The notes below the pieces were generated by a model. The model made no database searches and was not told the origin of the DNA. It saw nothing but the letters and a program-made list of their open reading frames with translations. From Tistrella mobilis (GTDB lineage: Bacteria; Pseudomonadota; Alphaproteobacteria; Tistrellales; Tistrellaceae), in the NCBI RefSeq assembly GCF_041468085.1, contig NZ_CP121017.1, positions 1,219,501 to 1,283,500 on the forward strand: a stretch of DNA of 64,000 nucleotides, written 5' to 3'. A program made the position numbers and the translations under genes. The stretch's first letter is position 1. Each line of letters opens with the position of its first letter. Positions 3,221 through 54,105 of this stretch are shown piece by piece.

Positions 3221-4402
3221 ATGGATCACGCCACCCAGGTGCATCTGATCGACCGTGTGTTCGACATGATCGATCGCCGCACCACGGAAATGGACCCGGC
3301 CGAGTATCACAACCCGGTCAGCCGCTATATCGATCCCGAGCGCTACAAGCGCGAGGTCGAGATCATTTTCCGCCGCAACCCGATCATCGTCGCCCATGGC
3401 AGCGAGCTGCCCAAGCCCGGCGACTACAAGACCATGGACGTCACCGGGGTGCCGATCCTGCTGGTCCGCACCCAGGACGGTTCGGTCAATGCCTTTCTGA
3501 ACGCCTGCCGCCACCGCGGGACCAAGCTGGTCTGGGAGGAATGCGGCAGCCACAAGCGCAGCTTCGTCTGCCCCTATCATGCCTGGACCTACGGCACCGA
3601 CGGCAAACTGGTCGGCGTGCCCGCGGCGGAAGGCTTTCCGAACATGAAGCGCGAGGAGATGGGCCTGCGCCGGCTGCATTGCGCCGAGCGTTACGGCTTC
3701 GTCTTCGTTCAGGTGGACCCGACCGCGCCCAAGGTGGATGTCGATGCCTGGCTCGGGCCCATGGCGCACGAGCTGGAGCATATCGGCACCGCCGATTACG
3801 TCGTCTGGCGGCCCGCCCAGCTGGAGAAGAAGACCAACTGGAAGCTGGCGCTGGATACGTTCCTTGAGAACTATCACACCCGCCGCACCCACACGAAGAC
3901 CATCTGGCCGGTCTTCCTGGACAACACCGCCGCCTTCGACCGGCTGTCGCCACATGCCCGGGTGGTGCTGCCCAAGCGCTCGATCCCCGAGATCCGCGAC
4001 CAGGATCGCGAGACCTGGAACCTGCGCGACCATTCCACCGTGCTCTACACCATCTTCCCGAACCTGATGCTGGCGGTATTGCCCGATCATTGCGCCATCT
4101 TCCAGGTCTGGCCCGATGGCATCGACAACTGCAAGCTGCCGGCCTACACGCTGGTGCCGCCGAAATATCTGGAGAGCGCCACCGCCCAGGACATCTGGTC
4201 GAAGAGCATGCATGTCGTCTTCGAGGTGACCGAAGAGGACAGCGACCGCTCCGAGGCGATCCAGGCGGCGCTCAATTCCGGTGCCAACGACCATTTCGTC
4301 TTCGGCCGTTACGAACAGGCCCTCGCCTGGTTCCACCAGGAGGTGGAGGCGATGCTGAACGGTCAGGCCGAGTGGGTCCGCTATGCCGAAGCGGCCGAGT
4401 GA
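3221..4402 (+). CDS. Rieske-type aromatic-ring-hydroxylating oxygenase, alpha subunit
   Basis: A 393-residue non-heme iron oxygenase subunit. The N-terminal Rieske [2Fe-2S] site is complete: Cys96-x-His98 (NACRHRGTKL) and Cys117-x2-His120 (FVCPYHAWTYG). The catalytic domain has the mononuclear iron motif LDTFLENYHTRRTH, with bridging Asp212 and ligands His219 and His224. The size and layout match ring-hydroxylating dioxygenase/O-demethylase alpha subunits. No beta subunit, ferredoxin or reductase gene is nearby, so electrons must come from elsewhere. The stop codon lies within a 15-bp tandem repeat (4399-4451). It is followed on the same strand by a radical SAM gene and two diiron proteins, suggesting one oxidative pathway. 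The substrate is unknown. Confidence 0.9.
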   Translation: MDHATQVHLIDRVFDMIDRRTTEMDPAEYHNPVSRYIDPERYKREVEIIFRRNPIIVAHGSELPKPGDYKTMDVTGVPILLVRTQDGSVNAFLNACRHRGTKLVWEECGSHKRSFVCPYHAWTYGTDGKLVGVPAAEGFPNMKREEMGLRRLHCAERYGFVFVQVDPTAPKVDVDAWLGPMAHELEHIGTADYVVWRPAQLEKKTNWKLALDTFLENYHTRRTHTKTIWPVFLDNTAAFDRLSPHARVVLPKRSIPEIRDQDRETWNLRDHSTVLYTIFPNLMLAVLPDHCAIFQVWPDGIDNCKLPAYTLVPPKYLESATAQDIWSKSMHVVFEVTEEDSDRSEAIQAALNSGANDHFVFGRYEQALAWFHQEVEAMLNGQAEWVRYAEAAE

Positions 4403-4451
4403 TCCCGGGACCCGTGATCCCATGATCCCGGACCCCGTGATTGCCGGGTCC
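4399..4451. repeat. 15-bp imperfect tandem repeat spanning the Rieske stop codon
   Basis: Units GTGATCCCGGGACCC (4399-4413), an 8-bp partial GTGATCCC (4414-4421), ATGATCCCGGACCCC (4422-4436) and GTGATTGCCGGGTCC (4437-4451). The first unit contains the TGA stop at 4400-4402. It is one of several 15/18-bp repeats in the window. Confidence 0.85.
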
Positions 4452-4463
4452 TGAGCCGGCGCG

Positions 4464-4603
4464 GCGAAACGACACCGACACGACGATCAGATCTCCTGCG
4501 GGCGCGTGGGCTCCACGCGCCCGGCCGGGGGAGGTGCGCGCCCGCCCGGCTCTCAATCTGCGACCCCCGCCGATCCGCGAAACGACACCGCGAAACGACG
4601 ACG
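4464..4603. repeat. three copies of a 14-bp motif upstream of the radical SAM gene
   Basis: GCGAAACGACACCG occurs at 4464-4477 and 4577-4590, and GCGAAACGACGACG at 4590-4603. The last two form a 13-bp tandem pair (4575-4587, 4588-4600). They flank the hairpin at 4500-4522 and end 18 bp before the radical SAM start, so they could be regulator binding sites or simple repeat expansion. Confidence 0.7.
4500..4522 (+). terminator. strong hairpin between the Rieske and radical SAM genes
   Basis: Perfect 10-bp GC stem GGGCGCGTGG / CCACGCGCCC (4500-4509 and 4513-4522) with a 3-nt loop. There is no T tract, so it could be a Rho-assisted terminator or an attenuating leader for the next gene rather than a classical intrinsic terminator. 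Confidence 0.5.
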
Positions 4604-4621
4604 ACGAAGGGGCTGCCTCGG

Positions 4622-5887
4622 ATGAAGACCGACGAAAATCGCAATGTAACGCGTGAGCGCATGCAACGCCTGGAGGCGTTGCTCGACGGCGAGGACGAGC
4701 TTCGCGACCGCCTGCAGGCGGTGCTGCGCTTCTCCCGCAAGATCCGCGTCAGCGAATATCACCTCACCAATGCCTGCAACATCCGTTGCAAGGGCTGCTG
4801 GTTCTTCGAATACGGCCACGACACCGCCACGCGGGAGGCCAAGGATGCCGAGGCGCTGGAAGCCTTCCTGATCAAGGAGACCAAGGAACGGCGGGTGAAT
4901 GCTGCCCTGGTGATCGGCGGCGAGCCGACCCTCTTTCCCGACCGGCTGCGGCTGTATGTCAAGCACATGCCCTATGTGACGATCTCGTCCAACGGGCTGC
5001 GCCGGCTGCCGATGGAGGGGTTCGAGAACGTCGCGATCGGCCTGACCCTGTTCGGCGGCGGGCCGATGGACGACCAGCTGCGCGGCATCAAGCCCAGCGG
5101 CCGCACCTTCACCGGCCTGTTCGAAACCGCGCTTGCCAATTACCGCGACGATCCGCGCGCCGGCTTCATCTATGCGCTGACCGAGACCGGTATCGAGCAT
5201 ATCGAAGAGACGGTGGTCCGGATCCGCGACAACGGCAACCGGGTCAACTTCAACTTCTACAGCGCCTATGACGCCGAGGATCCGACGGCGCTTGCCCGGC
5301 AGGAAGAGCTGCTGGAAGAAGCGCTCCGCGTGCGGGCGAAATATCCCGAGACCGTGGTCAGCACGCCTTACTACATCCGCACCATGATCACCGGTCGCAG
5401 CCATTTCGGCCGCTTCGGCTATGACGTCTGCCCGTCGCTGTCGCAGGACCATGCCGGCCATGCCGACCGGCTGGTCAACGGCAACCCGGTGCTGCCCTTC
5501 TTCAACACCTGGGCGGCCGATCTCAAGACGGTCAAGTTCTGCTGCACCTCGGGCCATTGCAACGGCTGCCGCGACAGCCAGGCGGTGATTTCGTGGATGG
5601 TGGTCAGCATGGACCGCTTCCTCACCGACAAGGTGATGCTGGAAACCTGGGTCGAGATGGCCGAGAGCTACTGGAAGCAGTTCATCTGGGGTCCGTTCCA
5701 CTGGACGAAGGATGCCGGCCGCCGTCAGGCGGTGATGGACCCGATCGGCGACGGCCATGCCACGCAGGTCTCGGTCGATCTCGCCCATGGCGAAACCCTG
5801 CCCAACCCGCTGCTGGCCGCGGTCGCCGGTCGCGAGGCGGCAGAGGCCGGGGACGCGCGGGTTCGGGTACCGGAGGTGGTGGCGTGA
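4622..5887 (+). CDS. radical SAM protein with auxiliary-cluster cysteines
   Basis: A 421-residue radical SAM enzyme. The SAM-cluster motif is canonical: Cys52-x3-Cys56-x2-Cys59 (ACNIRCKGCWF), followed by GGEP at 99-102 for SAM binding. C-terminal cysteines at about 270, 307, 308, 313 and 316 (FCCTSGHCNGC) suggest a SPASM/twitch-like auxiliary Fe-S cluster, as in enzymes that modify peptides or small molecules. A good ribosome-binding site (AAGGGG) precedes ATG 4622. The stop overlaps the GTG of the next gene (GTGA), so the two are translationally coupled. I do not recognise the exact subfamily. Its position between a Rieske oxygenase and two diiron proteins suggests a shared biosynthetic or catabolic pathway. 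Confidence 0.85.
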   Translation: MKTDENRNVTRERMQRLEALLDGEDELRDRLQAVLRFSRKIRVSEYHLTNACNIRCKGCWFFEYGHDTATREAKDAEALEAFLIKETKERRVNAALVIGGEPTLFPDRLRLYVKHMPYVTISSNGLRRLPMEGFENVAIGLTLFGGGPMDDQLRGIKPSGRTFTGLFETALANYRDDPRAGFIYALTETGIEHIEETVVRIRDNGNRVNFNFYSAYDAEDPTALARQEELLEEALRVRAKYPETVVSTPYYIRTMITGRSHFGRFGYDVCPSLSQDHAGHADRLVNGNPVLPFFNTWAADLKTVKFCCTSGHCNGCRDSQAVISWMVVSMDRFLTDKVMLETWVEMAESYWKQFIWGPFHWTKDAGRRQAVMDPIGDGHATQVSVDLAHGETLPNPLLAAVAGREAAEAGDARVRVPEVVA

Positions 5888-6363
5888 CGATGCTGCCGGC
5901 CGATGCACCGGAAACCGTTGCCGCAGCCGGGATCGCCCTGGCTGCGGCCCGGCTTTCGGCCGAGCCGGTGGCACTGCACAACGCGATCCGGGTCGAGGCC
6001 GACGGCTCCGATGCGGCGATCGCGACCATCACCCGCATCCAGCCCTTTCACAAGGGCGGCGCCGAACGCGCCCTGATCAATGGCGGCATCCTGCAGGCGC
6101 TGATGGAACGCGCCATGCGGGCCGCCGCCGCCGCCGTTCTGGGCGATGCCCCCTCGCGTCTGGTCTCGCTGGATCAGCGCTGGCTGGGGCCCGTCCTGCC
6201 CCGGGGGGTCATCGCCCGCGCAGAAATCGAGGGTCAGGCCGGCACCGGCACGGTCCTGCTTGCCGCCACCATTTCCGATGCCCGCGGCGGCCCCCGGGTC
6301 CGCGCTGCCGGCATCGTCACTGTCGCAGACCAGTCACCGACGTCCACCAATCCCCCTCTTTGA
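5884..6363 (+). CDS. hotdog-fold (PaaI/4HBT-like) thioesterase-like protein
   Basis: A 159-residue protein with a single hotdog domain: RIQPFHKGGAERALINGG (about residues 50-67) leads into the central helix ILQALMERAMRAAAAAVLG, then strands SLDQRWLGPVLPRGVIARAEIEG and TVLLAATISDARGG. The catalytic Asp/Glu is probably Glu74 in the central helix. GTG at 5884 is preferred over ATG 5890 because it overlaps the radical SAM stop and has GGAGG at 5872-5876 at ideal spacing. It is likely to act on the CoA thioester of the pathway intermediate. This is the second hotdog protein in the group, and it is quite divergent from the one at 2427. Confidence 0.75.
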   Translation: MTMLPADAPETVAAAGIALAAARLSAEPVALHNAIRVEADGSDAAIATITRIQPFHKGGAERALINGGILQALMERAMRAAAAAVLGDAPSRLVSLDQRWLGPVLPRGVIARAEIEGQAGTGTVLLAATISDARGGPRVRAAGIVTVADQSPTSTNPPL

Positions 6364-6384
6364 ACTGACCCCCAGATCGGTTCA

Positions 6385-6450
6385 AGCCGCCATCGATGCG
6401 GCGGCCAAGGGCGCGAAGCGCCCGCCTGGGCAGAGGGACCACCAAAAAAG
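6385..6450 (+). other. candidate structured leader, similar to 61955-62018
   Basis: This is the 5' leader of the PaaA-like gene. It can fold as GCCGCC (6386-6391) with GGCGGC (6400-6405), then GGGCGC-GAA-GCGCCC (6409-6423), followed by TGGGCAGAGGG and an A run. The first 26 bases match 23 of 26 at 61955-61980. It could be a structured RNA family or a dispersed repeat. Confidence 0.35.
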
Positions 6451-6461
6451 GAACGCTCAAG

Positions 6462-7214
6462 ATGACCGAACAGACCGCTCATGCTGCCGCCGGGGAGCGG
6501 CTGCTCGTGCCGGATGCCAAGGCCTTCCGTGAGATGCCGGACGAGTACCAGGAACTGGTGATCCATCAGCTGCGTGCTCATACCGAGGGTGAGCTGACCG
6601 GTGCCGACGACTACATCCAGATCTTCTATCCGATGGCGCCGACGGCCTTTGAGCGCAAGGTGTGCTGCGAGCGCGCCGCCGAGGAAATGGATCACTACAT
6701 CCGCGGCAAGGCGGTGCTGGACGAGATCGGCGTCGACACCGCCTATATGCTGAAGCAGCATCTGGATCAGCGTGAATTCTACCGCACCGAGGGCGTGCGC
6801 CGGATCGAGAACTGGCTGGGACGTGGCATGTTCTCGTTCATCGGCGAGGCGGCCGTGCTGGCGCAGATCCACGAGATGTCGAAGAGTTCGTACAAGCCGC
6901 TGGCCGACATGTGCACCAGCGTCATCATCGACGAGCACAACCACGTCGCCCAGGGCTACCGGATCGTCTGGGAGTACTGCCAGACCGAAGAGGGGCTGAA
7001 GGATGCCCAGGCGATGCTGGAAAAGGCCTGGCCGATCACGCTCGACCTGTTCGGCAGCTCCGAGAGCAAGCGCTCGCCGCTTTATGTGAAGTGGGGTCTG
7101 CGCCAGTACACCAATGAAGAGGCCCGCCAGCGTTTCATCGCCCAGATCACCCCGCGTGTCGAAGTGCTGGGGCTGAAGGTGCCGGCGGCCGAGGCGAACC
7201 GCAAGTTCCTCTGA
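6462..7214 (+). CDS. PaaA/BoxB-like diiron oxygenase subunit
   Basis: A 250-residue ferritin-like protein resembling PaaA, the catalytic subunit of phenylacetyl-CoA epoxidase. The diiron ligands can be placed as Glu42 or Glu44 (HTEGELTGADDY), Glu75-x2-His78 (AAEEMDHY), Glu129 (FIGEAAVLAQIHEM) and Glu158-x2-His161 (IIDEHNHVAQGY). The end of the fold (EKAWPITLDLFGSSES) also resembles the PaaA C-terminus. ATG 6462 is chosen because AGGA lies upstream and the family starts here. The usual partners PaaB, PaaC, PaaD and PaaE are absent, so this is not a phenylacetate operon. It is followed by a strong terminator. The substrate is unknown and may be a CoA thioester, given the neighbouring hotdog proteins. 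Confidence 0.8.
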   Translation: MTEQTAHAAAGERLLVPDAKAFREMPDEYQELVIHQLRAHTEGELTGADDYIQIFYPMAPTAFERKVCCERAAEEMDHYIRGKAVLDEIGVDTAYMLKQHLDQREFYRTEGVRRIENWLGRGMFSFIGEAAVLAQIHEMSKSSYKPLADMCTSVIIDEHNHVAQGYRIVWEYCQTEEGLKDAQAMLEKAWPITLDLFGSSESKRSPLYVKWGLRQYTNEEARQRFIAQITPRVEVLGLKVPAAEANRKFL

Positions 7215-33899: not shown

Positions 33900-34453
33900 G
33901 CCGCCCTCCGCAGCGTCATGAACCCGGTCTCGGGCGCCCGGGCCGGCGGGTAGAAGGCGAGATCGGCTTCCATGTGATGATGCGGTCGGCCATGAAGCTC
34001 GATCTCGGCCAGGCTTCGCCAGTGCAGCTTCTGGAAGAGCGGTGCATTCGCCGCCTGGACATGGGCCAGAAAGCGGGTGCAGCCGCGGGCGCGGGCGGTG
34101 GAGACCGCCAGCCGGATCAGGCCCGACCCCAGGGCGCCGATCCGCCGATGGGCGCGATCGACCGCCAGTCGCGAGCCCCACCACAGGCCAGGCTCGGCCT
34201 CGTGGATCCGCACCGTCCCGACCACATCGCCCGGGGCGACACCCAGCAGGGATACCGCGACCAGCGTCAGCGCCACCCGGTCGATCGCATCGCCGTCATC
34301 GCCGGCGAACAGGCGCTGTTCGGTGCAGAACACCTGCCGGCGCAGCCGGGCCGCCGCGGCGCGTTCCCAGGGCTCCACCGCCAGCTTGATCTGGAAGCTC
34401 GCGGGCAGAAAGGGGGAGGATGGCGGGAAAAGGTGAAGCGGTTCCGGCATCAT
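33896..34453 (-). CDS. nitE: GNAT-family N-acetyltransferase of Nit1C (sll0786 family)
   Basis: A 185-residue GNAT-fold protein. The acetyl-CoA-binding segment is WWGSRLAVDRAHRRIGALGSGLIRLAV, corresponding to the R/Q-x-x-G-x-G/A loop. The N-terminus LAVEPWERAAAARLRRQVFCTEQRLF is characteristic of the sll0786 family. It overlaps both nitD (4 bp, upstream) and nitF. It presumably acylates the product of one of the other Nit enzymes; the acceptor is unknown. ATG 34453 or ATG 34450 are both possible. Confidence 0.87.
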   Translation of the reverse strand: MMPEPLHLFPPSSPFLPASFQIKLAVEPWERAAAARLRRQVFCTEQRLFAGDDGDAIDRVALTLVAVSLLGVAPGDVVGTVRIHEAEPGLWWGSRLAVDRAHRRIGALGSGLIRLAVSTARARGCTRFLAHVQAANAPLFQKLHWRSLAEIELHGRPHHHMEADLAFYPPARAPETGFMTLRRAA

Positions 34454-35640
34454 GGCAGCACCTCCGCCGGCAGGGGGGCGGCGCGTTCGATGGCATCCGG
34501 CGCGCCGGCTCTGCGGCGTTCATAGGCCGAGAGTGCCGAGCAGGCACCGCAGCGGGCGCAGCCCGCCTTGACCGCGTCGGCCGCCAGCCCCGCCCCGGCC
34601 AGCATGGCGGCGAGCGGGTTCAGCACCGCATGCATGAAGGCGGCATCGGGCCCCGGATGGCCGGCGAGCGGCGTGCCCGAAATCGGCACGAAGGGCACCA
34701 CGAAGGGGTAGACGCCGATCGCGACCAGCTGCCGGCACAGCGCCAGAATGTCGTCCACCCCGTCGCCCAGCCCGGCCAGGATGTAGGTGGAAACCTGGCC
34801 GCGGCCGAAGACCGGCACTGCGGCTGCGAATGCCTCAAGATAGCGGCTGACCGGCACCTGGGCCTTGCCGGGCATGATCCGCGCCCGCACCGGTTCCGTC
34901 ACCGCCTCCAGATGCATGCCCAGGCCGTCGGCGCCGGCCTCTTTCAGGCGGCGGAACCAGGCATCGTCGTCGGGCGGCTCGCACTGCACCTGCACCGGCA
35001 GATCCACCGCCGCCTTCACCGCCGCCACGCTTTCCACCAGGATGGCGGCGCCGCGATCCTTGCCGGGCGGGGTGCCGGTGGTCATCACCATATGGCGGAC
35101 GCCGTCCAGCTCCACCGCGGCCCGGGCGACCTCGGCCAGCTGCGCCGGGCTCTTGCGCTCCACGGTGCGACCGGCGGCCAGGGACTGGCCGATGGCGCAG
35201 AACTGGCAGGTCTTGGCCCGGCTGACATAGCGCACGCAGGATTGCAGCACGGTGGTGGCCAGCACGTCGCGGCCGTGAAGCGTGGCGATCTTCCAATAGG
35301 GCACGCCGTCGGCGGTCTCGCGGTCGTAGAAGCGCGGCCGGCGCGGAAAGGACACCTCGCCCAGCGCCCGGCCGTCGCGGAATACCCGGGCCCGGCCGGC
35401 CGTATCGGGCCGTTCCAGCACATAGGGGCTGGCCTTGGCCGCGCTGGTATGGATCGGCACCATCACCGTCGTCTCGCCGATGGTGAGCGCGGTATGATCC
35501 GACGGGCCGGCGCCGCCCTTGCGGTCGACCTCGGGGCCGGCTGCGTCAGCCAGCCTGGCGCCGAAGGACTGCAGCTCGTTGATCAGCGTCTCCGCGGCCG
35601 GCGGACGGGTCGGCATCGGCGCCTGCGGGATCTCTGACAT
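34450..35640 (-). CDS. nitD: radical SAM protein of Nit1C (MSMEG_0568 type)
   Basis: A 396-residue radical SAM enzyme. The cysteines for the SAM cluster are unusual: Cys135, Cys145 and Cys148 ([19 protein letters not shown]), i.e. C-x9-C-x2-C rather than C-x3-C-x2-C. It ends with [17 protein letters not shown], where three further cysteines could ligate an auxiliary cluster. The ATG at 35640 has GGGAGA eight bases upstream. It overlaps the 3' end of the nitrilase gene by 95 bp, an unusually long overlap. A complex transformation, coupled to nitrilase, is implied but not known. Confidence 0.88.
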
Positions 35641-36622
35641 CGCGGCGTCTCCCGGGGATGAGGGTGTCGGACGGGTCGGCGGCCCGGTGCATCGGTACCG
35701 CCGGGCGGTCGTCGAGGCGCAGCGACAGCAGGTCCGGCCGGGCGTAATGGCCCACCGAATCCATCATCCGCTTGCGCTTCAGGATCAGGCCCATGTCGAG
35801 ATCGGCGATCAGGATGCCTTCGCCCGCGGTGAGCGGCGGCACCAGATGCCGGCCTTCGGGCGAGACGATCGCGGTCATGCAGCCGCCCGACAGCGCGCCG
35901 TGCAGGGCGGGATCGGGGGCGATGCGCGCCTTCTGTTCCGGCGTCAGCCAGCCGGTGGCATTGACCACGAAGCAGCCGCTTTCCAGCGCGTGGTGGCGGA
36001 TGGTGACCTCGATCTGCTCGGCGAAGATCGGCCCGACCAGCGCGCCGGGGAACTGGGCGGCGTGGATCTCTTCATGGCCGGCCATCAGCGCATAGCGGGC
36101 GAGCGGGTTGTAGTGCTCCCAGCAGGCCAGGGCCCCCACGCGGCCGGCGGCGGTTTCGACCACCTTGAGCCCGGCGCCGTCGCCCTGGCCCCAGATCATC
36201 CGTTCGTGGAAGGTCGGGGTGATCTTGCGACGGCGGAGCAGCAGCGTGCCGTCGGCATCGAAGACCAGCTGGGTGTTGTAGAGCGAGCCGTGATCCCGCT
36301 CGTTCACGCCCACCACCATCACCATGGCATGGCGTCGTGCCGCTTCGGCGAGGGCGGCGGTCACCGGGCCGGGCACGGTCACCGCCTGGTCGTAGAGCCG
36401 GAGATGCTCGGCGCCAGTCGCAACTGGTGGATGCACGAATGAAAAATACGGGTACCAGGGAATGAAGGTTTCGGGGAAGACCACCAGCTGTGCGCCCCTG
36501 GCCGCCGCCTCGGCAGCGGCGGCGAGGACGCGCTCCAGCGTGGCCGCTGCGGTATCCAGATCGGGGGAGATCTGGACCGCGGCGGCGCGGATGGTGGCGG
36601 GTGTGGCACGGGATCCGGTCAT
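35546..36622 (-). CDS. nitC: nitrilase of the Nit1C cluster (Nit6803 type)
   Basis: A 358-residue CN-hydrolase. The catalytic triad is complete: Glu51 ([14 protein letters not shown]), Lys133 ([20 protein letters not shown]) and Cys167 ([16 protein letters not shown]). Nit6803-type enzymes hydrolyse aliphatic and aromatic nitriles, and in Nit1C-bearing bacteria the gene is needed for growth on cyanide as nitrogen source. The catalytic core ends near [15 protein letters not shown]. The final 45 or so residues are Arg/Asp/Ala-rich, lie over the start of nitD and have no family likeness, perhaps from a frameshift that removed the original stop. Confidence 0.9.
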
Positions 36623-36639
36623 CGCGTCCTCGCGTTTCT

Positions 36640-36669
36640 GGCTCGTGAGCGGGAGGCTCTTGAGCGGGG
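36640..36669. repeat. 15-bp tandem duplication between nitB and nitC
   Basis: GGCTCGTGAGCGGGA (36640-36654) followed by GGCTCTTGAGCGGGG (36655-36669), in the 56-bp gap between two coupled genes. Confidence 0.8.
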
Positions 36670-36678
36670 GACGGGTGA

Positions 36679-37161
36679 TCAGAGCGTCCAGGTGTCGAGG
36701 ATGAAGGCGTTGTCCTTGCGGTGCAGCAGCACCAGGTCGAGCACGTCCAGCGGGTTGATCGGCGTGATCCCCGGGATCAGCGACGGCTCGCCATGGCCGT
36801 AAAGCGCCTGAAGCGCGAAGCGGCAGGCATAGACCTTGCCGCCTTCCTCCATGAATTTGACGATCTGGTTGTTCATCGCCAGATGGCCGGGGAAGGCCTC
36901 GTCGCCGAGCTTGGGGAAGCCGCGCTGCACGCCAAGTGTCACGCCGGGCCCATAGAGCAGCACGGTGGTCTCGAAGCCCTTGCGCAGCAGCCGGGTCGCC
37001 TGCAGCAGGTTCACAAGGCCGATCGAACCTTCGAAGGCGACGGTGTGGAAGGTGACCAGCGCCTTCTCTCCCGGCTGGGCCTTCACGTCCTCGAACACCT
37101 TCTCTTCGTAATTGACCAGGAAATCGCCGGTCTGATGGGCAGGCTTGGTGACCACGGGCAT
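36679..37161 (-). CDS. nitB: DsrE-like Nit1C protein, nitrogen-starvation response family (MSMEG_0572 type)
   Basis: A 160-residue protein. [44 protein letters not shown] is the DsrE/F-like fold, and the tail [30 protein letters not shown] is specific for the MSMEG_0572/sll0783 family. It is the first gene of the cluster; the cyanobacterial homologue responds to nitrogen starvation. The frame is open for 39 more codons upstream but ATG 37161, with GGAGAGA before it, is the family start. It could handle cyanide- or sulfur-bearing intermediates. Its function is not known. Confidence 0.86.
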
Positions 37162-37566
37162 CGTTGTCTCTCCGATGGTGCCGGTCCGCGGCGCCTCTGC
37201 CGCGGCTCTCAGGGTCTCGGGAAGTGCAACGCTCGTGCCATGCGACCGCCTGTTCATGATGTAATCAGATGCAGTCAATTTACAGTCATATATACAGTCA
37301 ATTGGCGCAATGATGGCGCTGAAATCGCCTATGGAATGGTCGTTCTGCCTATGAATTGAGCTTAAATTTCGTGCATGGACTCATGTGCATAAGTTATTGG
37401 CATAAAATTCGATGAATGAGGATGGGCAGAGGCGGCGTGCGGATCCAGTCAATCCGGTCATTGCCGTGGCATGCGGCACAAAGCCGCCGCTGCGCGTGAT
37501 TGCGCCCCGCTTCACGGCGTGCAACAAGGTACGGTCAATTGCCTTCAGACGAGACCCGGTGACCGC
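37162..37566. promoter_or_regulatory. 405-bp divergent promoter region of Nit1C and the MocR gene with CAGTCA repeats
   Basis: CAGTCA occurs as direct repeats at 37272-37277, 37283-37288 and 37295-37300, spaced 11-12 bp and set in AT-rich DNA near the nitB side. On the regulator side are CAGTCA (37446-37451), CGGTCA (37455-37460) and CGGTCA (37532-37537). Several copies are followed by AATT or ATTG. Direct repeats of about one helical turn are typical MocR binding sites. No gene is supported in this stretch. Confidence 0.68.
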
Positions 37567-46640: not shown

Positions 46641-48368
46641 ATGGCCGCCGACGACACCACCCCCCACGGCCTTGCCCGCGGTCTCACCAATTACGGCGAC
46701 CGCGATTTCGCCCGCTATCTGCGCCTCTCGATGGCGCGGGCGATGGGCCATTCGACCGCACTGCTGAACAAGCCTGTGGTCGGCATCGCCGCGACCTACA
46801 GCGAGTTCAACAACTGCCATCGGGGCGTGCCCGAACTGGTCACGGCGGTGAAACGCGGCGTGCTGGCGGCGGGCGGGCTGCCGCTCGAATTTCCGACCAT
46901 CTCGCTGGGAGAGGTGTTCCTGAACCCGACCAGCCTGTTCTTCCGCAACCTGATGGCGATGGACACCGAGGAGATGATCCGCGCCCAGCCCATGGATGCC
47001 GTGGTTCTGGTCGGCGGCTGCGACAAGACCGTACCGGCGCAGCTGATGGGCGCGGTCTCGGCCGGTCTGCCCGCGGTGCAGGTGGTGACCGGGCCGATGA
47101 TGACCGGCCGCTGGCGCGGTGAGCGGCTGGGCGCCTGCACCGACTGCCGGCGGTTCTGGGCGAAGTATCGCGCGGGCGAGATCGATGCAGACACCATCGC
47201 CGAGGTCGAGAACAATCTCGCGACCACCGCCGGCACCTGTGCAGTGATGGGGACCGCCAGCACCATGGCCGCCATCGCCGAGGCGCTGGGCATCATCCTG
47301 CCCGGTACTGCCGCAATTCCTGCCGTCCATGCCGACCGGATCCGCGCGGCCGAGGCCTCGGGCACCGCCGCCATGGAGCTGATCCGCCGCGGCATCACCA
47401 TCCGCGACATCATCACGCCCCGATCGGTCGAGAACGCGTTGCGCGTGCTGCTCGCCATCGGCGGCTCCACCAATGCCATCATTCATCTGACTGCGATCGC
47501 CGGCCGGGCCGGCATCGACATCGATCTCCGCCGGCTCAACGAACTTTCGGACACGACGCCGGTGCTGGTCGACCTGAAGCCGACCGGGCCGTTCTACATG
47601 GAAGATCTGCATGCGGCCGGCGGCATCGGCGCGGTTCTGCGCGAACTCCGGCCCCTGCTCCATCTCGACTGCATGACCGTGGCGGGCGAGACTCTGGGGG
47701 AACGGCTTGGCTCACCGGCGCCCTATGTCGACCGGGCCGTGGTCCGCGCACTCGATGCACCGCTACAGCCCGAAGGCGGGCTGGTGGCGCTGTTCGGCTC
47801 GCTCGCCCCGCGGGGTGCGATTCTGAAGCGGGCGGCAGCCGACCCGGCCCTGTTCGAGCGCGAGGGCCGGGCGGTGGTCTTCACCTCGCTCGAAGATCTC
47901 GCGGCCCGGATCGACGATCCGGATCTCGACGTCGCGGCCGATGATTTTCTGGTGCTGCAGAATGCCGGCCCCTTGAGCGCGTCGGGCATGCCCGAAGCCG
48001 GTTATCTGCCGATCCCGAAAAAGCTCGCCCAGGCGGGTGTGCGCGACATGGTCCGCATCTCGGATGCGCGGATGAGCGGCACCGCCTATGGTACCATCGT
48101 TCTCCACGTCGCCCCCGATGCCGCTTCGGGCGGCCCGCTCGCCCTTGTCCGCACCGGCGACCGCATCCGCCTTTCCGTGAAGGATCGCCGCATCGATCTT
48201 CTGATCGACGACGAGGTGCTGGCTCAGCGCCGCGGCGAAACCCCGCCCACCGCCATCACCCCGCCGCGCGGCTATGCCCGCCTCTATGCACAGGAGGTGC
48301 TTCAGGCCGACCAGGGCTGCGATTTCGATTTCCTGCGGGCAGTGCCGGGGCGGCGCGAGGTCCCTTAG
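46641..48368 (+). CDS. IlvD/Edd-family dehydratase (second paralogue)
   Basis: A 575-residue dehydratase. Cluster and active-site regions are VVLVGGCDKTVPAQLMGA, TTAGTCAVMGTAST and the SDARMSGTAYGT motif near the C-terminus. The first Cys region is GIAATYSEFNNCHRG, where the Cys of the GICNTW motif in the paralogue at 17862 is replaced by Ala-Ala-Thr, and a Cys is found six residues later. This may indicate a [4Fe-4S]-type or different cluster. The substrate is not assigned: aldonate or dihydroxy-acid. It is an isolated gene, ending by 4-bp overlap with the convergent TacT toxin gene. Confidence 0.85.
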   Translation: MAADDTTPHGLARGLTNYGDRDFARYLRLSMARAMGHSTALLNKPVVGIAATYSEFNNCHRGVPELVTAVKRGVLAAGGLPLEFPTISLGEVFLNPTSLFFRNLMAMDTEEMIRAQPMDAVVLVGGCDKTVPAQLMGAVSAGLPAVQVVTGPMMTGRWRGERLGACTDCRRFWAKYRAGEIDADTIAEVENNLATTAGTCAVMGTASTMAAIAEALGIILPGTAAIPAVHADRIRAAEASGTAAMELIRRGITIRDIITPRSVENALRVLLAIGGSTNAIIHLTAIAGRAGIDIDLRRLNELSDTTPVLVDLKPTGPFYMEDLHAAGGIGAVLRELRPLLHLDCMTVAGETLGERLGSPAPYVDRAVVRALDAPLQPEGGLVALFGSLAPRGAILKRAAADPALFEREGRAVVFTSLEDLAARIDDPDLDVAADDFLVLQNAGPLSASGMPEAGYLPIPKKLAQAGVRDMVRISDARMSGTAYGTIVLHVAPDAASGGPLALVRTGDRIRLSVKDRRIDLLIDDEVLAQRRGETPPTAITPPRGYARLYAQEVLQADQGCDFDFLRAVPGRREVP

Positions 48369-48868
48369 TCGAACAATCGTGCAATATCCGCCATTGGCCT
48401 GAACAGCCTCATCGGCTGATCCGGAAAGGCCAGGAAGCTCTCCCGCTCGTAGAATCGACGTGCGATATCATCTTTGGCATCCACGACGACCGCGAAGGAG
48501 GCAATTTCGCTCCGAACCGCGCGATAAAGCGCATCTGCCAGCAGGAAGCGGCCATAGCCTTTTCCCTGATGGCGTTGATCAATCGCAAGACGCCCGAGCA
48601 GAGTAGCGGGGATCAGCGGATAGCGGGGAAGCTTGCGGTCGACGGCTACCGGCAGTTCGGGCAGGTGCAAGGCAGTGGCCGACAAGGTGTAATAGCCAGC
48701 GATTTGGTTGTCTGGAAACAGAAGGACGAAAGGGGCGGCAACCCACTTGCGGGCATCCTGCCCCGCTTGTGTGCGCAAATAACGGTCAAGGGGCTCCGAG
48801 CCACTGGCAAAGCCGCTGCGGTCATGCGTGGTTGCCAGCGGTTCGACCCGTAGAGCTTCGTCTTGCAT
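48365..48868 (-). CDS. tacT: GNAT toxin of a TacA-TacT type toxin-antitoxin module
   Basis: A 167-residue GNAT acetyltransferase. The acetyl-CoA loop is RLAIDQRHQGKGYGRFLLADAL and the catalytic-Tyr region is ARRFYERESFLAFPDQP, both typical of TacT toxins that acetylate the aminoacyl group of charged tRNA and block translation. ATG 48868 begins the conserved N-terminus (LRVEPLATTHDRSGFASGSEPLDRYLRTQAG). It lies 4 bp after the antitoxin stop. The stop overlaps that of the dehydratase. Confident as a TA toxin from the gene pair; the tRNA specificity is unknown. Confidence 0.87.
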   Translation of the reverse strand: MQDEALRVEPLATTHDRSGFASGSEPLDRYLRTQAGQDARKWVAAPFVLLFPDNQIAGYYTLSATALHLPELPVAVDRKLPRYPLIPATLLGRLAIDQRHQGKGYGRFLLADALYRAVRSEIASFAVVVDAKDDIARRFYERESFLAFPDQPMRLFRPMADIARLFD

Positions 48869-48872
48869 TGTG

Positions 48873-49169
48873 TCAGATGCCAGTCCGCTGACGATATCGA
48901 CGGATGGTATCCATCAGGCGATCATTCACCGGGTGTGGTTCGGTGAGCGCCCGGACAAATGCTTCTCCGTCGCGCAACGAAAGATCGATGCGGCGGTGGT
49001 CTTCAATTGCCCGGCGGGCTGCGTCCTGCACCGCCGCCAGAACGAAGTCGGTCACACTGCGGCCTTCCAGAGCGGCGGCATGTTCGATCAGCCGCTTCTG
49101 TTCGGCGCTGACGCGCGCCTCCAGGCGCTCGCTGCGGGTACGGTTGGCCGAGGATTTCAGGGCGCTCAT
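48873..49169 (-). CDS. tacA: DUF1778/TacA-type antitoxin
   Basis: A 98-residue ribbon-helix-helix antitoxin. The RHH domain is RLEARVSAEQKRLIEHAAALEGRSVTDFVLAAV, and the C-terminal tail with RALTEPHPVNDRLMDTIRRYRQRTGI should wrap around the toxin to neutralise it. The antitoxin-first order with a 4-bp gap is typical of TacA-TacT. The two are presumably self-repressed via an operator upstream of ATG 49169. Confidence 0.88.
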   Translation of the reverse strand: MSALKSSANRTRSERLEARVSAEQKRLIEHAAALEGRSVTDFVLAAVQDAARRAIEDHRRIDLSLRDGEAFVRALTEPHPVNDRLMDTIRRYRQRTGI

Positions 49170-49943: not shown

Positions 49944-50750
49944 ATGACCCGCAGCCTTACGCCCGACACGATCGGGAACGCCGTCGACGGCCCCGGCGTC
50001 GTCGCCTTCACCGTCGAGCTGAAGCAGGAATTCGACACCAGGGCCCATCGCCATGCCCGCGGTCAGATGATCGGCTGCAGCCGGGGGGTGGTGACCGTGC
50101 GCACCGATCAGGGCGCCTGGCTGGTGCCGGCAGGTCATGGCATCTGGCTGCCGCCCTGGCAGCCGCATGGCGGGCGGAGTTTCGGGCCCGGTGCCGGGTG
50201 GAGCGCCTATATCCGGCCCGATCTCTGTGCAGACCTTCCGGCACGGCCCCGCACGGTGCGCGTGCCGGCCCTGCTGCGCGAAGCGGTCCTGCGCGCCGCG
50301 ACCTGGGAAGACGACCGGATGGATGCGGCGCGCCGGCGGATCACCGGGCTGATCCTGGACGAGATCGGCGATCTGCCCGCGGAAGATCTGGGCCTGCCCA
50401 TGCCGTCGGATCCCCGCCTTCAGCGGATCGCCCAGGCGCTGCTGGAAGATCCGGCCGATCGCCGCAGCCTGGAGGGCTGGGCCAGCTGGGCCGGCACCAC
50501 CCCGCGCACGCTCAGCCGACGATTCCCGCAGGAAACCGGCCTCAGCTTCACCGACTGGCGCCACCGCGCCCGGCTGATCCGCGCGCTCGAAATGCTGGCG
50601 GAGGGCGCATCGGTCACCACGATCGCCTTTGATCTGGGCTATGCCAGCGTCAGCGGCTTCATCGCCCTGTTCCGCCGGACGTTCGGCGTCACGCCGGCCG
50701 CGCATCCGATCGTTCCCGGCTTGCAGAGGCCCGTCCGACCGGATAGTTAA
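49944..50750 (+). CDS. AraC-family regulator with cupin sensor domain
   Basis: A 268-residue regulator. The N-terminal cupin part is HRHARGQMIGCSRGVVTVRTDQGAWLVPAGHGIWLPP (about residues 32-72). The C-terminal AraC DNA-binding domain has two helix-turn-helices (SLEGWASWAGTTPRTLSRRFPQETGLSFTDWRHRARLIRALEMLAEGASVTTIAFDLGYASVSGFIALFRRTFGVTP). It faces the PPOX gene and lies 56 bp before the macrolactam synthetase on the same strand, so it could also affect that locus. Weak ribosome site; ATG 49944 begins the cupin. Confidence 0.87.
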   Translation: MTRSLTPDTIGNAVDGPGVVAFTVELKQEFDTRAHRHARGQMIGCSRGVVTVRTDQGAWLVPAGHGIWLPPWQPHGGRSFGPGAGWSAYIRPDLCADLPARPRTVRVPALLREAVLRAATWEDDRMDAARRRITGLILDEIGDLPAEDLGLPMPSDPRLQRIAQALLEDPADRRSLEGWASWAGTTPRTLSRRFPQETGLSFTDWRHRARLIRALEMLAEGASVTTIAFDLGYASVSGFIALFRRTFGVTPAAHPIVPGLQRPVRPDS

Positions 50751-50806: not shown

Positions 50807-52723
50807 GTGAATCTTCTGTTCGCGCATATCGGGCGCGACGATGGCGTCATCGATGACCGGCGGTCGGCGGCGGCGGTGTCCGCCTCCGGGCTGATCATCC
50901 GTCGGCACCATGACGACGGCCTCGCCCTGCTGCTCCAGGCCGGGGCGGCCGGGCCGTCGTCGCGTCCCCCGCGGCCCCTGCCGTGCCGGCCGGGACCGGA
51001 CGGCAGTGTGAGCCTGTTCGACGGTGCCCTGTACAATGCCGCCGAACTTGCCGCCACGCTCGACCATCCGGCCGGAACGGAGGCAGCTGTCCTTGCCGCA
51101 ACCGCACTTGCCCGGCAGGGAGAGGCGGCCCCCGCTGGCTGGGTGGGTGATTTTGCGGTCATTCGTTGGGATCCCGCGCGCCGGGAGCTGATCGCGGCGA
51201 TCGATCAGATGGGCGGCCGGCCGCTGTTCTATTGCTGCCGCCCGGACGGTATCCTGCTTGCCTCCCGGATCGACACGCTTCTGGCCCATCCCGCCGTTCC
51301 CCGGGGGCTGGATCCGGAGATTCTGGGGCTGACGCTGGTGGCGGCCGCCCATCGCCGCCCCAATCGCACCGTGCACACCGCGATCGACATGCTGCCGCCG
51401 GGGCATGGGCTCACCTGGTCCGACGGTCGTCTGCGGCTCTGGCGGTACTGGCAGCCCGATCCCACCCGCCGGATCCGGTTCCGGCGGAATGACGAGTATG
51501 TCGAGGCGGCCCGCCATCTGCTGGAACAGGCGGTCGCCTGTCGTCTGCCGGCCGGTGACGAACCGTTGCTCTGCCATCTGACGGCCGGGCTCGATTCCAC
51601 CGCGGTGGCGACGACGGCGGCCCGGCTGCGGGATCCCGCGCCCCTGCACACGGTGACCCTGCGCCCGCAGCCCATGGCGGTTTTGCCCAAGGCGCCCGGG
51701 CTGATCCAGGACGAGTGGGATGGCGCCCGGCTGGTGCCGCCGCTTTATCCGAACATGGTACCGCATCATCTGGTGGCGCCGGTGCCGACGGAGCCGGATG
51801 AAGATCCGGGCGGGCGTTTCCATCGCCGCGACTGGCCGATGAGCTGGCTGTTCTCGGACGGGCTCTACCATCCGACCCCCGATCTGGCGCGCGATCTGGG
51901 CGCGCGGGTGGTGCTGACGGGCGAGGGCGGCAATCTGTCGCTCAGCTGGGACGGCCGTCTTGCCATGGCCGATCAGCTTCGTCGCCTGCACCTCCGGGGC
52001 CTGGCCACGAACCTGGCCGGGCGGGCACGCCAGGGCAAATCACCGCTCCGGGAATTTCTGGGATGGGCGCTGCTGCCGGCGCTGCCGCCCGAACTGCGGC
52101 TTGCCGTGAAGCGCCTTCGGGGGCGGCCGGAGCTCTGGCGTGAACGCAGTGCCCTTGCCCCGGCCCTCGGCGAACGGCTCGCAGAGGGGCGTCTTACCCG
52201 CCATGCGCCGCGGCGCAGCGCCTCGCGCGATGCCGATATGCGGATCGGGCTGATCGAGAAGAACACCTTCCTGAATCTCGCGCATTCCGGCCATATGTGG
52301 GCCGATCCGGCCGATCGGCGCCATCCGCTCACCGATGTCCGGCTGGTCGATTTCTGCCTGGGGCTGCCCGCGGAGCAGTATCTGAACCGGGGCCGCGACC
52401 GCTGGCTCGCCCGACGGGTGCTGGCCGGCCGTCTGCCGCAGGCGGTGCTCGACGAGCGCCGGACGGGCCGGGAAAATGCCGACTGGTTCCAGCGGATGAC
52501 CATCCGGCGCGACTGGATGATGGCGGAGATCGAACGCTGCGAGGCGTCGCCGCTTGCCCGCGAGGTGCTCGACCTGCCCAGGATCCGGCGACTGATCGAG
52601 GCCTGGCCCGCAGATGCAACGCAGGCCTCCCGGCCCGAGACCATGCTGCCCCTGCTGCATGCCGTCGGACGCGGGCTGCGTGTCGGGCAGTTCATCTATC
52701 GGGCCGAGGGCGGCAATGGCTGA
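50807..52723 (+). CDS. lasso-peptide-type macrolactam synthetase (asparagine-synthetase family, C protein)
   Basis: A 638-residue AsnB-like protein. The N-terminal Ntn domain (residues 1 to about 200) lacks a nucleophilic Cys at position 2 (Asn2), so it is not a glutaminase. The C-terminal adenylating domain has the ATP-PPi loop LTAGLDST (258-265), a variant of SGGLDS, then VLTGEGGNLSLSWDG (about 370-384) and ERRTGRENADWFQRM near the C-terminus. This pattern is that of lasso cyclases (McjC-like), which adenylate an Asp/Glu side chain of the precursor and form the macrolactam with residue 1. GTG 50807 follows a weak ribosome-binding site. A 50-residue precursor and a sulfotransferase follow on the same strand. 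No B protein or exporter is near. Confidence 0.8.
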   Translation: MNLLFAHIGRDDGVIDDRRSAAAVSASGLIIRRHHDDGLALLLQAGAAGPSSRPPRPLPCRPGPDGSVSLFDGALYNAAELAATLDHPAGTEAAVLAATALARQGEAAPAGWVGDFAVIRWDPARRELIAAIDQMGGRPLFYCCRPDGILLASRIDTLLAHPAVPRGLDPEILGLTLVAAAHRRPNRTVHTAIDMLPPGHGLTWSDGRLRLWRYWQPDPTRRIRFRRNDEYVEAARHLLEQAVACRLPAGDEPLLCHLTAGLDSTAVATTAARLRDPAPLHTVTLRPQPMAVLPKAPGLIQDEWDGARLVPPLYPNMVPHHLVAPVPTEPDEDPGGRFHRRDWPMSWLFSDGLYHPTPDLARDLGARVVLTGEGGNLSLSWDGRLAMADQLRRLHLRGLATNLAGRARQGKSPLREFLGWALLPALPPELRLAVKRLRGRPELWRERSALAPALGERLAEGRLTRHAPRRSASRDADMRIGLIEKNTFLNLAHSGHMWADPADRRHPLTDVRLVDFCLGLPAEQYLNRGRDRWLARRVLAGRLPQAVLDERRTGRENADWFQRMTIRRDWMMAEIERCEASPLAREVLDLPRIRRLIEAWPADATQASRPETMLPLLHAVGRGLRVGQFIYRAEGGNG

Positions 52724-52782
52724 GGCGCATCATGTCCGGACGACGGCGTTTTCGTCTGTTCACGGCGCCTGCCGCCTCGTAT

Positions 52783-52808
52783 ATGTTCGATCGATGAATG
52801 ATCAACAT
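52783..52808. promoter_or_regulatory. AT-rich inverted repeat upstream of the peptide gene
   Basis: ATGTT (52783-52787), GATC (52789-52792), GATC (52800-52803) and AACAT (52804-52808) form an interrupted dyad in the only AT-rich part of the locus. It lies 18 bp before the precursor start, with AAGGA (52810-52814) as ribosome-binding site. It may be a promoter/operator that boosts precursor transcription within the operon. Confidence 0.4.
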
Positions 52809-52825
52809 TAAGGACCTATCAGGCG

Positions 52826-52978
52826 ATGACCGATCGGAACGATGAGCTTTCTGTCAGTGGCAATATGACCTCGGCGGCCTGGTCGACGCCAAGGCTGACG
52901 GTCGTGCCGATCCATGATCAGACCGAGGGGAGCGGCAGCCAGGTTTCGGAAGGCCCCCGCACCCGCGATATGAGTTGA
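52826..52978 (+). CDS. lasso-peptide precursor (50 residues)
   Basis: A small ORF read directly from the sequence; ATG 52826 to TGA 52976-52978. The leader contains W19-S-T-P22-R-L24, matching the (Y/W)-x-x-P-x-L motif recognised by lasso B1 (RRE) proteins. Thr33 then sits two residues before Gly35, as lasso proteases require (Thr at -2). The predicted core is residues 35-50, GSGSQVSEGPRTRDMS, with Gly1 and Glu8 at the right positions for an 8-residue Gly1-Glu8 macrolactam ring and an 8-residue tail ending in Ser. AAGGA at 52810-52814 supports the start. It lies between a macrolactam synthetase and a sulfotransferase that overlaps its stop. Ring size and cleavage site are predictions. Confidence 0.75.
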   Translation: MTDRNDELSVSGNMTSAAWSTPRLTVVPIHDQTEGSGSQVSEGPRTRDMS

Positions 52979-54105
52979 CCGCCGGATGGGAGCTGCCCGA
53001 GCGGGCGCTCATCACCCGCGACGGCCGGCGTCTGCGCCTCAGATCCGCCAGCAGCAGGCCGGCTGACGGCCGCTGGTCGTTCCGTGCCGCGCTTCACCAG
53101 GCGCGGGATGCGGATGCGCCCTTCCGGGATGTGTCGCTGGAGGATCCGTCCCTGGCGGCCGGACCGTCTCTGGCCGCCAGCCTGCCGCTGACGGCCGGGA
53201 TCTTCCATGCCTCGCGCTGCGGGTCGACCCTGGTCGCCAACATGCTGGGCGGGATCGGCGGCGTGCAGATCGCCGACGAGCCGGAAGCATTGCTCGATCT
53301 GATGGGGCCGTTCTGGACGCCGGTTCCGGCCGGCGTCAGGCAGGATGATCTGCGCCTCGTGCTGGCCCTGCTCGGGCGTCCGATGATGCCCGAGGCCCGG
53401 CATTTCCCTGAGGCCCGGCATTTCCCCGAAGCCCGGCATTTCATGGTGAAGTTCTCGTGCATCGGGCTGGATCGCCTCGGCGAGCTGGAGATGGTCGCCC
53501 CTCGGATGCGCAAGGTCTTCGTGATGCGGGATCCGCTGGAGATTCTGGTCTCGAACCTGCGTCGGCGGCCCGGCTGGTCGCTCTCGTTTCACAACCCGAT
53601 GCGTCGGGCCTTCAGCCTGGGCATGCGGCCGACTGCCGCCGCCGATATGGCCATGGAGACGTTCATCGCCGCCGTGCTCGGGCGGGCGCTGTCTCTGGCG
53701 GCGGACAGGATCGCCGCTGCGCCGGCCGAATGGCTGCTGGTCGACCATGCCGAGCTGCCGGGCGCGGTGATCGACCGCATCCTGCCCTGGCTCGGGATCC
53801 GGCCGCAGCCGGAAGAGATCCTGGAGATGGAGCGCGAGGCGCGGCTCTATTCGAAGGGCCGCGGCGACCGCAAGGTCTTCGTTCCCGATGGTGAGCGCAA
53901 GCGTCGTGAGGCCTCCGCCGCCGAGATGGCCCTCTGTGAGCGCTGGATGCGCGAACCTCACGACCGGCTTCGGACACTCTGGCGGATGCAGCCCCGGTCA
54001 GGCACCTCTCCACACCCCCAGGTCGACAACCCCCAGGTCGACAACCCCGAGGCCGACAACCTCAAGGCGCACGCCTTGCAGACGCACCGCCGAGGGTATA
54101 GGTAA
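52975..54105 (+). CDS. sulfotransferase-family protein, putative tailoring enzyme of the peptide
   Basis: A 376-residue protein with the sulfotransferase PAPS-binding loop FHASRCGSTLVANML (residues 77-91), a match to the 5'-phosphosulfate loop, and the 3'-phosphate region VFVMRDPLEILVSNLRRRPGW (about 181-201). TTG 52975 overlaps the precursor stop (TTGA) and is the only start before the conserved part. Two tandem repeats are in frame: PEARHF x3 (53389-53442, residues 139-156) and PQVDN, PQVDN, PEADN (54016-54060, residues 348-362). Downstream coupling with the peptide suggests sulfation of a core residue. Other members act on unknown small molecules, so the link rests on gene order. Confidence 0.72.
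   Translation: MTAGWELPERALITRDGRRLRLRSASSRPADGRWSFRAALHQARDADAPFRDVSLEDPSLAAGPSLAASLPLTAGIFHASRCGSTLVANMLGGIGGVQIADEPEALLDLMGPFWTPVPAGVRQDDLRLVLALLGRPMMPEARHFPEARHFPEARHFMVKFSCIGLDRLGELEMVAPRMRKVFVMRDPLEILVSNLRRRPGWSLSFHNPMRRAFSLGMRPTAAADMAMETFIAAVLGRALSLAADRIAAAPAEWLLVDHAELPGAVIDRILPWLGIRPQPEEILEMEREARLYSKGRGDRKVFVPDGERKRREASAAEMALCERWMREPHDRLRTLWRMQPRSGTSPHPQVDNPQVDNPEADNLKAHALQTHRRGYR
53389..53442. repeat. 18-bp triplication in the sulfotransferase gene (PEARHF x3)
   Basis: CCCGAGGCCCGGCATTTC (53389), CCTGAGGCCCGGCATTTC (53407) and CCCGAAGCCCGGCATTTC (53425). It adds 18 residues in the middle of the protein, between the PAPS loop and the RDP region. Confidence 0.92.
54016..54060. repeat. 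15-bp triplication at the sulfotransferase C-terminus
   Basis: CCCCAGGTCGACAAC at 54016-54030 and 54031-54045, then CCCGAGGCCGACAAC at 54046-54060. The encoded tail is PQVDN-PQVDN-PEADN. Confidence 0.92.

Follow-up and report, generated by a model that had tools for sequence, protein, structure and literature searches.

Organization of the Locus and Its Precursor Peptide

The window analyzed here is a 64-kb stretch of a Tistrella mobilis genome (G000; 6.3 Mb in four contigs), and at positions 50807-54105 it carries three consecutive plus-strand genes that form a well-supported locus for a lasso-type ribosomally synthesized and post-translationally modified peptide (RiPP). These are an AsnB-like protein of 638 amino acids, assigned below as a lasso-type macrolactam cyclase (C; 50807-52723), a 50-residue open reading frame (ORF) for the precursor peptide (52826-52978), and a sulfotransferase of 376 amino acids with a TTG start codon (52975-54105). 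The locus is referred to as locus A, related loci of the same genome are named loci B, C, and D, and two Tistrella congeners (G001 and G002) were compared. The original prediction, made from the letters of the window, had placed a 50-residue frame between a lasso-type cyclase and a sulfotransferase, and its coordinates, strand, and sequence all proved correct. The designation as a lasso-peptide locus stands as far as a lasso-type RiPP is concerned, whereas the ring and the cleavage site keep the status of predictions.

The precursor comprises the leader MTDRNDELSVSGNMTSAAWSTPRLTVVPIHDQTE (52826-52927) followed by the core GSGSQVSEGPRTRDMS (52928-52975), and a Shine-Dalgarno-like AAGGA was read from the sequence at 52810-52814, with GAGGA and AAGGA equally placed in the two congeners. 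Counted from Gly35, the first residue of the core (52928-52930), W19, P22, L24, and T33 occupy positions -16, -13, -11, and -2, in line with the W-x-x-P-x-L motif and the Thr-2 originally described for the leader; the motif WSTPRL (52880-52897; -16 to -11) conforms to the Y/WxxPxL type with Trp in place of Tyr, and the Thr at -2 lies at 52922-52924. Glu42 (52949-52951) is core residue 8 and the predicted ring acceptor for the amino group of Gly1, which agrees with the proposed register of an 8-membered ring. The predicted mass of the lasso form (linear core minus water) was recomputed as 1631.7322 Da, matching the earlier value of about 1631.73 Da, and it would rise to 1711.6890 Da with SO3.

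The precursor ORF is real and more than a chance frame. It is unbroken in all three genomes of the genus (the window; L011:1352-1504; L012:2589-2741, minus strand), and residues 14-35 are nearly invariant, whereas the core varies: for the three genome pairs, nonsynonymous differences number 0, 1, and 1 over residues 14-35 and 6, 7, and 2 over the core. The ratio of nonsynonymous to synonymous substitution rates (dN/dS) of the whole ORF, calculated over few sites, is 0.81 and 0.67 between the window and the two congeners. Glu8 is the sole acidic residue of the core in both G001 and G002, and is thus the only side-chain acceptor available there.

Conservation of the Precursor Register

The W-x-x-P motif by itself was rejected as a marker because it is unspecific, as illustrated by a PqqA-like ORF in the window's genome that reads WTTPQI (L276); the full register was therefore used. 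A loose pattern, W..P.[LMIV] x8 [TS] x [GAVS] x6 [DE], was scanned against the fetched loci of more than 9 kb each (123 loci with 2,050,802 bases; six repeat loci were left out), and it matched 21 ORFs in 19 loci, each of which has a profile match to a cyclase and/or to PqqD; the same sequences, when reversed, yielded no ORF. The pattern was modelled on several of the matched loci, so that those matches are not independent, but L099, L209, L228, and L231 played no part in shaping it; L272 is an orthologue of L030. A C-terminal Ser is present in 19 of the 21 ORFs, the exceptions being L209 (Gly) and one of the two ORFs in L077 (Val).

Within the cyclase clade of the window, defined below, every one of the 11 precursors (those of loci A and B in three species each, that of locus C, two in L072, and one each in L073 and L232) shares W-16, P-13, L-11, Thr-2, Gly1, Asp or Glu at position 8, and a terminal Ser, and Asp/Glu8 was no criterion in finding the ten precursors other than that of the window. 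The original prediction was to be given up if homologous loci lacked a conserved Gly/Ser1, Thr-2, and Glu/Asp8-9; these residues are conserved throughout the clade.

Several further precursor-like ORFs were noted. In the UBA7691 locus (L072:4794-5258), a second precursor copy is followed by what appears by eye to be a cut-short cyclase start, as if duplicated in tandem. Another stretch of the window's genome (L275; G000:C4:4307000-4323000) contains a precursor-like ORF (6549-6734, minus strand) in full register, which reads TQ and then GGGAPSDEVPEYLS; nearby genes encode PqqD, a DUF6916 protein, and, by eye, a GNAT-like protein, together with two genes of the tail-collar type, of which one was checked, and no cyclase match was found within the 16 kb fetched. 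Genes labelled 'tail fiber' also adjoin lasso loci on two Azospirillum plasmids (L209 and L210). Two more loci of G000 (L278:8244-8387 and L277) combine PqqD with an HPrK-like gene, again with no cyclase match in the fetched stretch, and a small ORF in L278 ends in ALTQSSGSTIADAAYQS.

Phylogenetic Position of the Cyclase

The cyclase tree comprised 41 rows from the window's own, related, and B2-adjacent loci (B1, the PqqD-type leader-binding protein, and B2, the peptidase, are considered below), with three AsnB rows as the outgroup, namely E. coli asnB and two from the window's own genome. Eight of the 49 gathered rows had been omitted beforehand (seven repeats, near-copies, or edge fragment, and one distant match of 58 bits). 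The AsnB rows split off with support of 100/99 and the window cyclase lies on the far side of that branch, so that the grouping with AsnB proteins that would have spoken against the original prediction was not recovered. The smallest strongly supported set that includes the window (100/99) consists of eight rows: the window, loci B and C from its genome, locus B from each of G001 and G002, UBA7691, Ferrovibrio, and G093. This clade is nested in supported sets of 11 and 12 rows, which hold two and three B2-adjacent cyclases, respectively, and an annotated paeninodin-type cyclase of Priestia lies with them on this side of the AsnB branch. The gene is also constrained, with dN/dS values of 0.24 (part of the gene) and 0.17 against the congeners.

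The cyclase might instead be an AsnB-like amidotransferase that acts on a small molecule or a sugar, with the 50-residue ORF being incidental. Pfam and NCBIfam describe it as asparagine synthase-like (PF00733, 2.5e-23), and the nearest solved structures, both by sequence and by fold, are TsnB9 and beta-lactam synthetase. On the other hand, the tree position, the register kept in all 11 clade precursors, and the absence of the Cys2 nucleophile of glutaminases make this explanation very improbable; tree and fold together identify an AsnB-like C protein of the lasso clade adjoining the precursor.

A different question is whether the product is threaded. The enzymes might instead make an unthreaded Gly1-Glu8 macrolactam, a cyclic peptide with a branch but no lasso fold; threading is not readable from the sequence, and the tail has just eight polar residues with no bulky aromatic plug. 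However, a characterized relative of the paeninodin type, which shares the cyclase's side of the tree, yields a lasso (PMC8498205), and Arg11, Arg13, and Met15 could act as a plug. The unthreaded form is thus considered unlikely, and a threaded lasso peptide is the preferred product.

A Peptide-Sulfotransferase-Like Enzyme and Its Putative Target

The third gene matches PF13469 weakly (0.005; 17.5 bits against a cut-off of 27), and nothing meaningful was found for it among solved structures by sequence. In an AlphaFold model (pLDDT, the predicted local distance difference test score, 83.5), the fold of sulfotransferases that use 3′-phosphoadenosine 5′-phosphosulfate (PAPS) can be recognized, although in the predicted model only. 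Foldseek placed tyrosylprotein sulfotransferases (TPSTs) first (E 3.8e-7), with TM-scores of just 0.3-0.5, and a second structure comparison likewise placed TPST-1 (5wri_A) at the top with Z 15.6, a root-mean-square deviation of 3.3, and 223 aligned residues, followed by STF9 at 15.1, which counts as tied (rows within 1 Z). Invariant among 28 aligned sequences are R81-T85, E102, K159, R185, and S193, which we take to match the TPST residues for PAPS binding and catalysis. The dN/dS values against the congeners are 0.33 and 0.22. Two in-frame tandem repeats lie within the gene, at 53389-53442 (18-bp unit, three copies) and 54014-54068 (15-bp unit, three to four copies); the PEARHF repeat unit occurs as a single copy in each congener, in one of them as PEARYF.

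Among 80 loci, a cyclase accompanies the sulfotransferase in all 10 in which the latter scores at least 250 bits, versus one of the 70 others. These 10 loci include three from T. mobilis and two from one Azospirillum metagenome-assembled genome (MAG), and Tistrella and G014 sequences were the basis of the profile. Six more distant sulfotransferases (about 120-207 bits; G338, G263, G324, G250, G040, and G161) have no cyclase match within approximately 1.5 kb on each side. Classical PF00685 sulfotransferases occur in other alphaproteobacterial lasso loci (e.g., L030, L212, L215, and L231), and the genes in L030, L215, and L231 imply that sulfotransferases are not rare in such loci.

The original prediction had left the sulfation target open, and this can be refined, with sulfation itself remaining a prediction. 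The core of locus A contains no Tyr, which excludes a Tyr target within the core, and the C-terminal Ser (Ser16; 52973-52975) is the only hydroxyl residue at a constant place in all 11 clade cores. Lasso kinases phosphorylate the C-terminal Ser (PMC8498205; PMC9266682). Ser16 is accordingly regarded as the likeliest acceptor of the sulfate, as a preference and not as proof. Some observations argue against this site: the clade loci L072, L073, and L232 also hold an HPrK-like gene, which could use the same Ser; the core of locus C ends in Ser, with no sulfotransferase or kinase found beside it; and the kinase BsfK of Bradymonas targets Ser3 (PMC10368454). As a marker of a local sulfotransferase or kinase, a C-terminal Ser fails at locus C, where neither enzyme lies in the fetched stretch.

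It is also conceivable that a lasso peptide is made while the sulfotransferase has some other metabolite as its substrate or lacks activity. The PF13469 score below its cut-off, the low Foldseek TM-scores, and the Ser-ending core of locus C that lacks an adjoining sulfotransferase fit this idea. However, a cyclase is present in each of the 10 closest loci, peptide sulfotransferases rank first in both structure comparisons, and the TTG start codon of the sulfotransferase overlaps the stop codon of the precursor in all three Tistrella genomes. An enzyme unrelated to the lasso peptide is therefore rather unlikely, and tailoring of the precursor remains the favored role.

Absence of B1 and B2 from the Locus

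The original prediction was silent on B1 and B2, and the lasso locus it described stands with the refinement that both are missing from the locus. Neither PqqD (B1) nor B2 profiles match anywhere in the 64-kb window or in the 17-kb T. mobilis locus L071, and a divergent B1 or B2 encoded locally was rejected as a candidate in the window for want of a profile match; locus A is not a complete lasso biosynthetic gene cluster with B1 and B2 inside. No B2 match was detected within 8 kb of any cyclase of the eight-row clade in the fetched stretches, which for L072, L073, and L232 end less than 6 kb upstream. The genome does encode both proteins, with seven PqqD matches and one match to PF13471.

Exactly one PF13471 match is present per genome in the three Tistrella genomes, and at least one in each of the nine genomes searched. 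The B2 of the window's genome (L022:14838-15494, minus strand) scores 71.7 bits against a cut-off of 33 for the NCBIfam lasso B2 model (NF033537). In all three genomes, the fetched flanks of this isolated gene (L022, L262, and L263; 3 to 15 kb on each side) hold no profile match to a cyclase, PqqD, a kinase, or a sulfotransferase. The G001 and G002 copies share 97% identity over 153 columns, and their dN/dS values against the window's genome, 0.12 and 0.09, indicate purifying selection on this B2. These genomes contain 6, 5, and 7 lasso-side cyclases (G000, G001, and G002, respectively; from a quick tree in which one lies on a long branch) and 7, 7, and 10 PqqD matches, one of which in G000 (L276) stands beside genes resembling those for pyrroloquinoline quinone. 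Two Tistrella cyclases outside the eight-row clade (L030 and L025) have sister cyclases in G302 (L231) with a nearby B2, as if local B2 genes were dropped. A tree of B2 proteins was unhelpful as a guide to the origin of the Tistrella B2, since the nearest rows (L210 and L218) join it at only 80/90.

The absence of B1 and B2 from the window, together with the lack of any transporter seen in the locus, could mean that the locus is a remnant, from which B1 and B2 have been lost and whose mature peptide is no longer made. However, the low dN/dS values of the cyclase and the sulfotransferase point to purifying selection, the frames are open in all three species, and the isolated B2 is itself constrained, so that decay of the locus appears highly unlikely.

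The best model, and the simplest reading, would be that one B2 acts in trans. B2 required B1 in the paeninodin system (PMC5067487), which implies that B1 is needed in trans here too, and the PqqD gene in the paralogous locus B (L021:11295-11579; PF05402, 60 bits) is a candidate for it. It is tempting to extend this model so that the single isolated B2 would serve the precursors of at least five loci spread over three contigs, the majority with a cyclase and some with a tailoring enzyme of their own, and that within the window's clade a TPST-like enzyme would sulfate the C-terminal Ser of the lasso; this full version is tentative, with the odds somewhat against it.

Comparison with Known Systems

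The HPrK-kinase lasso clusters of Proteobacteria and Firmicutes (paeninodin, ThcoK, and SyanK of Sphingobium yanoikuyae) share with locus A an AsnB-like C protein, the split B1/B2 type, a Ser-ending precursor, and a tailoring enzyme (PMC8498205; PMC9266682), whereas locus A has a sulfotransferase and no kinase, lacks B1 and B2, and encodes a precursor that fits no curated model. The bsf cluster of Bradymonas resembles it in the YxxPxL-type leader, the Gly1-Asp8 register, and the tailoring of a linear precursor, but has Ile at -2 where locus A has Thr, a kinase in place of the sulfotransferase, and, in contrast to locus A, clustered B1 and B2 (PMC10368454). In addition, the aromatic residue of the motif is Tyr at -17 in Bradymonas (motif -17 to -12) and Trp at -16 in the window, one residue nearer the core (PMC10368454). 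Thr-2 is an established recognition residue (PMC10368454).

Sulfotransferase genes within lasso clusters have been noted before, as putative genes in Firmicutes (Zhu 2016c, via PMC8498205) and in the PF00685 loci mentioned above. The enzyme of the window is of another type than the PF00685 proteins and lies directly behind the precursor, and BLAST at E 1 links the two by a 16-residue match only. A precedent for a B2 in trans is provided by lanthipeptide loci that rely on a protease gene elsewhere, although different proteases operate there and a lasso-type B2 here (PMC8960859). A literature search that covered few subscription papers returned neither a sulfated lasso peptide nor an unclustered lasso B2 shared between loci. 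In their accessible text, one lasso review refers to one untested sulfotransferase gene and has no word starting with 'sulfat' (PMC8498205), and another has no word starting with 'sulf' (PMC9266682). Searching for a published Tistrella lasso peptide turned up only incidental papers; RiPP-rich Tistrella MAGs have been reported, and 'lasso' is absent from the main text in the portion available (PMC13101482).

A Proposed Distributed Pathway

These observations are best explained by a lasso-type RiPP whose pathway is distributed over the genome, a reading to which a probability of about 0.7 is assigned. In such a pathway, the precursor would be translated just ahead of the sulfotransferase by way of the overlapping stop and start codons, and its leader (W-16, P-13, and L-11) would bind to a B1 of the PqqD type, the gene for which lies outside the locus. 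The isolated B2 peptidase, likewise encoded at another place in the genome, would cut after Glu-1, two residues behind Thr-2; the adjoining cyclase would then activate Glu8 with ATP and link it to Gly1, forming an 8-residue ring, and the tail GPRTRDMS would pass through this ring. Before folding, the sulfotransferase would move sulfate from PAPS to a hydroxyl group of the precursor, most likely that of the C-terminal Ser, in the way that lasso kinases of the HPrK type phosphorylate this residue. The data show the genes, their conservation, the clade of the cyclase, the predicted fold of the sulfotransferase, and the single B2 with no lasso genes in its fetched flanks, whereas cleavage, ring formation, threading, sulfation, and action in trans are inferred from them.

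Besides the missing B1 and B2, several points weigh against this explanation. No Pfam or NCBIfam model matches the precursor, and every curated lasso precursor model run against the translated ORF stays below its cut-off; the core is rich in Gly and Ser and lacks a bulky aromatic plug, and no transporter or isopeptidase was seen in the locus. The cyclase reaches 159.7 bits with the NF033535 lasso cyclase model and does not attain the cut-off of 525; this model was dropped as an arbiter of cyclase identity, because none of 386 sampled genomes of the class reaches that cut-off. The 'lasso side' of the tree is defined by only three AsnB outgroup rows, and its members came from a search whose profile had been built from them. 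In the loop at cyclase residues 369-382, which carries a Mg-binding Asp in AsnB-type enzymes such as that of E. coli, the window reads GGN, and Asn is found in 13 of 19 aligned rows including the window, with Asp in the other six. The PqqD of locus B scores 57.5 against a lasso PqqD cut-off of 80. Finally, some precursors do not fit the register: that of locus D (L027:16548-16697, same genome) has no acidic residue at 7-9 in either register, L026 has Gly-2, Gly1, and Asp7, L100 has Thr-2, His1, and Asp9, and the second peptide of L025 (L025:12255) has Ser-2, Asn1, and Asp8. These misfits belong to other cyclase branches, and they may follow other rules or have been misread.

Neighboring Genes in the Window

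An AraC-family gene (49944-50750, plus strand; PF12833, 7.6e-23; PF02311, 7.7e-08) lies 56 bp upstream of the cyclase gene and is a possible regulator of the lasso locus; a candidate counterpart of similar length and place is an ORF in T. mobilis (L071:4979-5779). The downstream neighbor of the locus is a UvrD/PcrA-type helicase gene. Further upstream, on the minus strand (48365-49169), a GNAT-like ORF adjoins a 98-residue ORF resembling DUF1778-type antitoxins, by eye a toxin-antitoxin-like pair, with no NCBIfam match at 1e-10. Positions 34450-37278 contain genes of the Nit6803 nitrilase, MSMEG_0568 radical SAM, and MSMEG_0572 families, all above their NCBIfam cut-offs, a set that we assume to resemble the Nit1C-type nitrile/cyanide cluster. 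A Rieske-type oxygenase, a radical-SAM-like protein, and a PaaA-like protein are encoded in a row at 3221-7214; NCBIfam matches of the first and third are below cut-off, and the second, called by eye, has none at 1e-10.

Implications

Genome mining rules usually seek the A, B, and C genes of lasso peptides side by side, and loci like that of the window are easily missed or labelled as AsnB. In the PLSDB gene table of the T. mobilis plasmid pTM1, which is incomplete by design, the paralogous locus appears as 'asparagine synthetase B family,' 'hypothetical protein,' 'PqqD family,' and a gene for a 2OG-Fe(II) oxygenase, and the table lists no precursor there. The interest of the locus lies in the combination of an unrecognized precursor family, a sulfotransferase linked to the clade, and a lone B2 that faces many cyclases. 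If one B2 does serve many loci, its specificity for Thr-2 and for the B1-bound leader would become testable within one organism, and a sulfated lasso peptide, if true, would represent a new tailoring chemistry for the class.

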